Shown here: in pieces, positions 46,851 to 49,866 of the stretch
Position numbering within the stretch: the stretch's first letter is position 1
Layout of the letters: each line of letters begins with the position of its first letter
From: Bacteroidota bacterium
GTDB taxonomy: Bacteria > Bacteroidota > Bacteroidia > Chitinophagales > Chitinophagaceae
Length of the DNA stretch: 64,000 nucleotides
Direction of reading: 5' to 3'
Assembly (NCBI GenBank): GCA_028875875.1
Contig: JAGWUV010000015.1
Coordinates: 1 to 64,000 of the forward strand
Program-made: the position numbers and the translations under genes
The notes under the pieces: generated by a model
Told to the model about the DNA's origin: nothing
Databases searched by the model: none
What the model saw: only the letters and a program-made list of their open reading frames with translations

Positions 46851-47141
46851 ATGAGAAAGTCCGATCTCATTACAAACATTTCTGAAAAAACAGGCATTCC
46901 TAAAGTAGATGTTTTGGTTGTTCTTGAAACGATGTTTAAAGAAGTGAAAGACAGCCTAGCCAAGGGCAATAACATTTATATCAGGGGGTTTGGCAGCTTT
47001 ATAACTAAAAAAAGAGCCGCCAAGATTGGAAGGAATATTAAGAAAAACACAGCGGTTGAAATTCCGGAACATCATATTCCGGCATTTAAGCCTGCAAAAG
47101 AATTTGTGCAGGAAATCAAAACCAAGCGAAAGCCTGAATAA
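46851..47141 (+). CDS. HU/IHF family DNA-binding protein
   Basis: 96 residues, a histone-like nucleoid protein. RKSDLITNISEKTGIPKVDV and ETMFKEVKDSLAKGNNIYIRGFGSF are the typical helical dimerisation part; KRAAKIGRNIKKNTAVEIPEHHIPAFKPAKEF is the DNA-binding arm and C-terminus, referenced here in pieces. It may bend DNA as a homodimer. TTTG, 20 bases, and TATTTAAA about 45 bases upstream could be its promoter. It leads a block HU / TPR / bS22-like / RNase G. Confidence 0.95.
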   Translation: MRKSDLITNISEKTGIPKVDVLVVLETMFKEVKDSLAKGNNIYIRGFGSFITKKRAAKIGRNIKKNTAVEIPEHHIPAFKPAKEFVQEIKTKRKPE

Positions 47142-47161
47142 CTTTGCTGAAAATTAATATA

Positions 47162-48013
47162 GTGAAACGTCAGCAAATTTTCCTGATTAGCAGTGGCATT
47201 GCAGCAGTAATCCTTCTTTTTGTTTTCGGAAAAACCACCCCTCCCAAAAATCAGTCTGGCAACAACATGCCTGCTGCCCAGGCTCAGGAAAGACCATCAA
47301 CCATACAATTTTCAGATATTCTTTCCAAAGCTAAACAAAAGCTGAGTTCAGATCAGAACCAACGCCTTACCGGGTTGGAGAACGCAGTAACCCGTGGCGA
47401 TGTGAAAGACCAGCAATTGCACGTATATCATCAGCTCGCCAGGTTCTGGAAAGACTCTGCCCATATATTTGAACCTTACGCTTATTATACTGCAGAAGCC
47501 GCCAAGTTGGAAAATTCAGAAAAAAGCCTCACATTTGCTGCCCAATTGTTTGTAGATAACCTACTTTCAGAAGGTGAGCCTGCCATGCAAAACTGGTTGG
47601 CAACAAATGCAAAAGATCTTTTAGACAGGGCTTTAAAAATCAATCCCAACAACGATTCTACTAAAATAGGTATCGGAGCCTGTTACATGCTTGGCAACAT
47701 TTCGGATAATCCGATGCAAGGCATTTTGCAGGTGAGGGAAGTGGTTCAAAAAAATCCGGATAACCTTTATGGGCAGTTGATTTTGGGATTAGGGGGAAAG
47801 AAAAGTGGCCAGTTTGATAAAGCGATAGAACATTTTAAAGTTATCCTTCAGAAACAACCACATAACCTTGAAGCTATTTTTCAGCTGGCAGAATGTTACG
47901 ACCTGAAAGGTGATAAAGCTGATGCAGTTAAATGGTATGAAATGGCCAAAGGAATGATTGATAATGAGCAGATCAAAAAAGATTTAGAAAAGCGTATTAA
48001 CGAACTGAAATAA
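47162..48013 (+). CDS. Tetratricopeptide repeat protein, membrane-anchored
   Basis: About 283 residues from the GTG at 47162 (a TTG at 47144 is the alternative, three bases after the HU stop). One N-terminal helix (IFLISSGIAAVILLFVFG) anchors it to the inner membrane with the rest periplasmic. Residues 160-275 carry tetratricopeptide repeats (AKDLLDRALKINPNNDS, KAIEHFKVILQKQPHNLEAI, FQLAECYDLKGDKADAVKWY). The role is unknown; TPR proteins usually mediate protein contacts. Closely linked to HU upstream and the tiny ribosomal-like gene downstream. Confidence 0.85.
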   Translation: MKRQQIFLISSGIAAVILLFVFGKTTPPKNQSGNNMPAAQAQERPSTIQFSDILSKAKQKLSSDQNQRLTGLENAVTRGDVKDQQLHVYHQLARFWKDSAHIFEPYAYYTAEAAKLENSEKSLTFAAQLFVDNLLSEGEPAMQNWLATNAKDLLDRALKINPNNDSTKIGIGACYMLGNISDNPMQGILQVREVVQKNPDNLYGQLILGLGGKKSGQFDKAIEHFKVILQKQPHNLEAIFQLAECYDLKGDKADAVKWYEMAKGMIDNEQIKKDLEKRINELK

Positions 48014-48043: not shown

Positions 48044-48139
48044 ATGCCTTGTGGTAAGAAAAGAAAACGTCATAAAATTGCTACTCACAAACGCAAAAAA
48101 CGTTTAAGAAAAAATCGTCATAAGAAGAAGAACAAATAG
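48044..48139 (+). CDS. 31-residue basic protein, bS22/mS38 (COX24/AURKAIP1)-like
   Basis: ATG at 48044 to TAG at 48139 encodes 31 residues: after MPCG come 27 residues of which about 20 are Lys, Arg or His, ending in LRKNRHKKKNK. The order of basic and hydrophobic positions aligns without gaps to the C-terminal core of mycobacterial bS22 and mitochondrial mS38 (COX24/AURKAIP1 domain), small proteins that sit in the small ribosomal subunit near the decoding site. It lies 30 bases after the TPR gene and before a hairpin and RNase G. Composition bias limits certainty. Confidence 0.75.
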   Translation: MPCGKKRKRHKIATHKRKKRLRKNRHKKKNK

Positions 48140-48157
48140 TTCTTTAACATGATTATT

Positions 48158-48177
48158 GCCCCGCATTAATGCGGGGC
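48158..48177 (+). terminator. Perfect inverted repeat after the bS22-like gene
   Basis: GCCCCGCATTAATGCGGGGC is a perfect 20-base palindrome. The following ACACTTT has few T residues, so it may be a weak terminator or an RNA-processing site ahead of the RNase G gene. Confidence 0.6.
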
Positions 48178-48315
48178 ACACTTTACGGTGTTTGCCACAT
48201 CTCTCCTTCTACGCAGCAACTTTACCTTTCCTTCCCTGGCAAATACGTGGTGTGATGTATTAGGTATGTCTGCTATAAGCGGATAGTGATTTCGTATTTA
48301 AAAGTTGCAAATTTT

Positions 48316-49866
48316 GTGAACAAAGAATTAATAATAAATGCAGCCCCTTCCGGCGTTGAAATTGCTTTGCTGGAAGACAAGAAACTTGTTGAGCTGCACA
48401 ATGAAAAAGCAGATGCCAGCTTTGCCGTTGGCGATCTTTATCTTGGAAAAGTTAAGAAACTAATTCCAGGACTGAATGCAGCATTTGTAGATGTAGGATT
48501 TGAAAAAGATGCATTCCTGCACTACACTGATCTTTCACCTTATGCCCGCTCCATCCTTAAATTCACGCAAATGGCGATGAATGATAAAGATGGCCATAGT
48601 TTTGATTTCGCTAAATTCCAGATAGAGCCTGAGATCATTAAAACAGGAAAGATCAACGAAGTATTGAACGGTAAGCCTCATGTACTGGTTCAAATTTTAA
48701 AAGAACCTATTGCTGCCAAGGGCCCGCGCCTCAGTTGCGAATTGAGCCTGCCCGGTAGATTTGTGGTTTTAACGCCCTTCAACGAAATAGTAGCCGTTTC
48801 TAAAAAAATTCATTCCGCCGAAGAAAGAAAAAGACTGCATAAGATCGTGGAAGCCATCAGGCCGAAAAACTTTGGGGTAATTGTAAGAACAGCAGCCGAA
48901 GGCAAAAGTACTTCGGAATTACACCAGGACCTGTTAGACTTGACGCAAACATGGGCCAAAATCCAACAGAATCTTCGGGGTGCTGAAGCTCCTTCAAAAA
49001 TCATGAGTGAGCAGGATAAAACAACAAGTATCCTCAGAGATCTTTTGAATGAAGATTTTAACCGCATTGTTGTAAATGATAAGAACATTTATAATGATAC
49101 TAAGAGTTATATCCAGCGTATTGCGCCTGATAAAGCAGAGATCATCACTTTCTATAACAGCGGCACAGCCGTTTTCGATCAGTTTGGTATTACCAAGCAG
49201 GTGAAAAGTTCATTCGGTAAAACCGTTAACCTTCCAAGCGGGGCTTACCTCATTATTGAACACACCGAAGCGTTGCATGTGATTGATGTGAACAGTGGCT
49301 ACAAAAGCGTTAGTAATAACCAGGAAGAAAATGCCCTGGAAACCAACCTGGAAGCGGCTGAAGAAATTGCAAGACAATTACGCTTACGCGATATTGGAGG
49401 TATTATTGTTATCGACTTCATCGATATGAAACTACCCGATAACAAGAAGAAGTTGCAGGAAGCTATGGAAGAATTTATGAAGCCGGATAGAGCAAAGCAT
49501 GCAGTTCTTCCCATATCCAAATTTGGATTAATGCAGATCACCCGCCAGCGTATGCGTCCGGAGGTGAACATTAATACATCCGAAACATGCCCTTCCTGCG
49601 GAGGAACTGGCAAAGTAACTTCTACCCTATTACTGGAAGATGAAATAGAAAAACGCCTGCATTATTTAACTACCCATTCACACAGGAACCTTTTATTGAT
49701 GGTACATCCTATTGTGCACTCACATCTAACCAAAGGTTGGTTTTCTTCCATCTATAAAAAATGGAAACGTAAGTATAAGATTGATCTGAAAGTAGAAGCT
49801 AACACCAGCTATCACCTTATTGAATTTCATTTCTTTGATGAGCATGATGAAGAAATAAAATTCTAA
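48316..49866 (+). CDS. rng: Ribonuclease E/G family protein
   Basis: 516 residues from the GTG at 48316 (FVNKELIINAAPSGVEIALLE); an in-frame GTG at 48286 would add ten residues. Single-strand endoribonuclease for rRNA maturation and mRNA decay. Parts: S1 domain (about 35-120, GLNAAFVDVGFEKDAFLHY), catalytic DNase I-like region with IDVNSGYK and IVIDFIDM, the metal-binding Asp pair, and the zinc link CPSCGGTGKV. It lacks the long E. coli RNase E C-terminal scaffold, as usual for RNase G types. Confidence 0.93.
   Translation: MNKELIINAAPSGVEIALLEDKKLVELHNEKADASFAVGDLYLGKVKKLIPGLNAAFVDVGFEKDAFLHYTDLSPYARSILKFTQMAMNDKDGHSFDFAKFQIEPEIIKTGKINEVLNGKPHVLVQILKEPIAAKGPRLSCELSLPGRFVVLTPFNEIVAVSKKIHSAEERKRLHKIVEAIRPKNFGVIVRTAAEGKSTSELHQDLLDLTQTWAKIQQNLRGAEAPSKIMSEQDKTTSILRDLLNEDFNRIVVNDKNIYNDTKSYIQRIAPDKAEIITFYNSGTAVFDQFGITKQVKSSFGKTVNLPSGAYLIIEHTEALHVIDVNSGYKSVSNNQEENALETNLEAAEEIARQLRLRDIGGIIVIDFIDMKLPDNKKKLQEAMEEFMKPDRAKHAVLPISKFGLMQITRQRMRPEVNINTSETCPSCGGTGKVTSTLLLEDEIEKRLHYLTTHSHRNLLLMVHPIVHSHLTKGWFSSIYKKWKRKYKIDLKVEANTSYHLIEFHFFDEHDEEIKF

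Follow-up and report, generated by a model that had tools for sequence, protein, structure and literature searches.

A 31-residue gene upstream of rng in a Bacteroidota contig is a close relative of ribosomal protein bS22

The window analysed here, a 64,000-nucleotide stretch of DNA from a Bacteroidota bacterium, carries on its forward strand a 31-residue gene (48,044..48,139, ATG to TAG; translation MPCGKKRKRHKIATHKRKKRLRKNRHKKKNK) that is conserved as protein-coding and whose product closely resembles, in sequence, chains modelled in ribosomes of the Bacteroidota type and of Borrelia. Judging by sequence, this product is almost certainly bS22, a constitutive component of the small ribosomal subunit. 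bS22 was already known in Bacteroidota from the structure of the Flavobacterium johnsoniae ribosome, and the window gene is an ordinary known part; what is new here, a conserved neighbourhood and an apparent absence through loss in certain lineages, adds modestly to that picture. Knowledge of bS22 in the phylum is said to originate with the F. johnsoniae ribosome structure of Jha et al. 2021. The gene, which falls under the usual gene-calling cut-offs, belongs to the core ribosomal genes of the phylum.

The source genome contains one copy of the gene, whose product comprises 12 lysine, 6 arginine and 3 histidine residues. The first-pass annotation had both the coordinates and the length right, and its estimate that about 65% of the residues are basic is close when histidine is counted (21 of 31, 68%) but too high for lysine and arginine alone (18 of 31, 58%).

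Identity and conservation of the 31-residue gene

A phmmer search of all PDB chains with the window protein returned three matches, all ribosomal or bS22-family by name: 7jil_5 from F. johnsoniae (E 1.3e-9), 9i5v_10 (E 2.1e-9) and 8fmw_V, the bS22 of Borrelia (E 2.1e-7). Two of these significant matches, 7jil_5 and 8fmw_V, are chains structurally assigned as bS22, and all three alignments were ungapped over 28–29 residues. With a profile built from 18 members of the bS22 family we recovered the same three chains at E 1e-14 to 6e-13 and nothing further. The window protein also shows the features of the Bacteroidota/spirochaete type of bS22, namely a length of about 28–35 residues, an MPxG(K/R)KR start and an HKRKK / RHKK core.

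We also considered the name bL38 and dropped it: '50S ribosomal protein L38' is only one molecule name on the 7JIL sequence, and bL38 has been described as a separate protein of the large subunit, with the F. johnsoniae helix given as bS22 (PMC10618245).

The conserved linkage of the gene to HU, and in one class also to rng, could be taken to mean that its product is a basic non-ribosomal peptide, such as a partner of HU or RNase G that binds RNA or DNA and is encoded in the same operon. We regard this as very improbable, however, given that the protein is 86–90% identical to chains modelled in ribosome maps; moreover, outside the window's class the protein stays where the rng linkage does not, and some genomes encode bS22 without HU in the 1.5 kb upstream. 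The proposal that the tiny ORF specifies a Bacteroidota ribosomal protein is instead borne out by the gapless matches to solved ribosomes and by near-universal conservation.

A bS22 match (E ≤ 0.01) was present in 377 of 392 genomes sampled across Bacteroidota and in 40 of 41 close relatives, the single exception being a genome that is 57% complete. Among 111 bS22 loci parsed in orientation, the start codon was ATG in 109 and GTG in two, and the stop codon followed shortly past the RHKK core. Codon differences from the window gene comprised 1478 synonymous and 157 replacing changes. Residues P2, G4, K6, R7, R9, K11, H15–K19 and R25–K27 never varied in the 111 loci, although the codons for them did; the invariant core of the family is P2, G4, K6, R7, K11, H15–K19 and R25–K28. 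The first-pass annotation had proposed a search for this short ORF in other Bacteroidota and had held that failure of related genomes to keep the ORF, its start and its stop would speak against it; the ORF proved near-universal, with both start and stop kept. That a functionless lysine-rich ORF arose by chance in A-rich DNA, as its shortness and its preponderance of AAA and AAG codons might suggest, has a probability close to nil and is refuted by this conservation, by the synonymous change and by the retained start and stop.

A longer bS22 C-terminus (RLRYRNK-type, 34–35 residues in all) was seen in several other families (L079, L080, L082 and L104); at these loci HU and rng matches were absent within 1.5 kb of bS22.

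Gene neighbourhood and transcription unit

The order on the forward strand of the window is HU, TPR, bS22 and rng, with mutY lying upstream and divergent. The first gene of the probable unit encodes an HU/IHF-family DNA-binding protein (46,851..47,141; PF00216, E 1.8e-26) and is followed by the gene for a TPR protein with an N-terminal hydrophobic segment (47,144..48,013; PF14559, E 2e-13), the stop codon of which ends at 48,013 and leaves the 30-base gap to bS22 that had been noted previously. Downstream of bS22 is rng, encoding an Rne/Rng-family ribonuclease (48,316..49,866; PF10150, E 3.7e-103; TIGR00757, E 1.1e-137), for which the usual N-terminus indicates a start at GTG 48,316, an upstream GTG at 48,286 also being possible.

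HU was found upstream of bS22 on the same strand and within 1.5 kb at 84 of the 111 loci, and rng downstream at 54 of the 111; wherever these members occurred they shared a common orientation. A TPR gene upstream of bS22 was detected across the window's class, and inspection by eye identified TPR-like proteins immediately 5′ of bS22 at loci L085 and L110. The HU-TPR-bS22-rng order is thus conserved in the window's class, and the HU(-TPR)-bS22 arrangement extends beyond it. Because rng as a neighbour was confined to the window's class in our sample, and HU and TPR-like neighbours occur in other classes too, the HU(-TPR)-bS22 linkage probably came first. These conserved neighbours offer a simple way of locating bS22. 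At Balneolaceae-type loci (L105 and L106) we noted Shine-Dalgarno-like AGGTGA or GGTGA motifs before HU and bS22; none was evident in the window.

Directly 3′ of bS22, on the same strand, lies a perfect 9-bp hairpin, TGCCCCGCATTAATGCGGGGCA (48,157..48,178), which is a candidate transcript end or mRNA 3′ structure; since the T run is missing 3′ of it, it stays a terminator candidate only. In several relatives (L023, L091, L097, L100, L105, L106 and L108) a hairpin followed by a T run sits immediately 3′ of the bS22 stop, which suggests that rng is probably a transcription unit separate from bS22. We infer that a HU-TPR-bS22 transcript stopping 5′ of rng is likely. The earlier suggestion that bS22 is cotranscribed with HU and the TPR gene is therefore plausible, and the conserved order and orientation lend it support.

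Genomes without bS22

For the 15 of 392 genomes without a bS22 match a profile search was also empty; as a positive control, the same profile does detect bS22 in sister genomes. In one family, presumably Salinibacteraceae, bS22 was missing in 24 of 27 genomes, some of them incomplete, and was retained by one genus of three genomes; restricting this family to genomes with completeness of 90% or more and contamination of 5% or less left 13 of 14 lacking the gene. A second group is the Fodinibius/Aliifodinibius genus (that of genome G350), seven of whose 12 genomes have no bS22: Fodinibius sediminis, F. halophilus and F. salsisoli are among the species without it, and uncultured Aliifodinibius carry it. 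At the HU locus of the Fodinibius non-carriers the bS22 stretch is simply missing, and their HU is 89–96% identical to that of a carrier. Absence both 3′ of HU and genome-wide by profile was found for Fodinibius-type loci L131 and L133–L136 and for probable Salinibacter loci L137, L138 and L141–L143.

In an rng tree of the 12 genomes from the genus of G350, the seven bS22-less genomes fell on one side of a single branch (support 93/94), and the distribution therefore fits a single loss; one of the two outgroup rows, L125, was in the wrong reading frame, which makes the rooting unsure and leaves ingroup membership unaffected. Three fragmented assemblies (G248, G295 and G380) were left out of the loss count, as were 35 Balneolaceae-type loci with bS22 absent within 2 kb of HU, because bS22 sits elsewhere in other genomes.

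Both the Salinibacter-like and the Fodinibius groups are halophiles. A tentative reading, which we hold to be possible and rather doubtful, is that bS22 disappeared on two or more occasions, from Salinibacter-like bacteria and from one Fodinibius clade, and that an extremely basic rRNA-binding peptide may be dispensable in a salty cytoplasm or environment; the connection with salt is conjecture. If the losses are true, the bS22-less lineages would contain natural bS22-free ribosomes and could serve as natural knockouts for the role of bS22 at the decoding centre.

Proposed role and comparison with known systems

By analogy with solved relatives, the window protein is likely to clamp rRNA below the decoding centre and to serve as an intersubunit bridge. 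The peptide, probably expressed from a HU-TPR-bS22 transcript, would form a bent helix and lie buried within a 16S rRNA pocket between h2, h27, h44 and h45, where it would neutralise phosphate charge and stiffen the upper part of h44 beside the decoding centre; on subunit joining it would touch 23S rRNA (H67/H68) and so add a bridge between the subunits. bS22 has been described in Borrelia, with contacts to h2, h27, h44, h45 and H68, and the same pocket is filled in mycobacterial and Bacteroidetes ribosomes (PMC10618245); in F. johnsoniae it has been observed and superposes on actinobacterial bS22 (PMC10085706). The mechanistic effects proposed here draw on such structures and on mitochondrial mS38, whose deletion in yeast hampers assembly of the mitoribosome and changes the decoding centre (PMC6582356). 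Since some lineages lack the gene, bS22 is not indispensable everywhere.

Likeness to mycobacterial bS22 and mS38, which the first-pass annotation had claimed, holds for position on the ribosome and not for sequence. Actinobacterial bS22 and mitochondrial mS38/COX24/AURKAIP1 are likewise tiny basic helices in the same h27/h44/h45 pocket (PMC10085706, PMC10618245), and the bS22 proteins of C. acnes and F. johnsoniae are superposable and 37% identical (PMC10085706). A sequence alignment of these proteins with the window protein was undetectable, however, and mS38 differs further in its long extra N-terminal sequence. BLASTP gave no alignment between the window protein and M. smegmatis bS22 (its sequence verified by exact PDB chain matches), nor did the family profile reach actinobacterial bS22 or mS38 in the PDB; the mycobacterial sequence itself reaches mS38 weakly (best E 0.11). 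Comparison with the COX24 family, suggested earlier as a check, turned out negative for the window protein, which has no significant match to Pfam COX24_C (PF08213; mS38/AURKAIP1), and yielded weak matches in 9 of 18 bS22 relatives (best E 0.052). The relation of Bacteroidota bS22 to mS38/COX24 is thus positional and perhaps ancestral, and is invisible in sequence from the Bacteroidota side.

Searched alone, the window protein matched no Pfam or NCBIfam model, and the bS22 family gave only meaningless NCBIfam hits; since these models fail to recognise bS22, it would be worthwhile to build one for it. The expectation that the protein is widely unannotated is only partly right, because PDB chain names show that bS22 is already named in some records, such as 'AURKAIP1/COX24 domain-containing protein'.

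The chain of that name in 9I5V/9I5X is 90% identical to the window protein without gaps, differing by three internal substitutions. Borrelia burgdorferi bS22 (8FMW chain V) is 79% identical, also gapless, and shares the MPCG(K/R)KRK start, although it belongs to another phylum and initiates at GUG (PMC10618245). F. johnsoniae bS22 (7JIL chain 5) differs in having S for C3, V for I12 and A for both L21 and K23, and the window protein is one residue longer at the C-terminus; the two are 86% identical, gapless and near-equal in length, with a shared MPxGKKRKRHKxATHKRKK...NRHKKK core.
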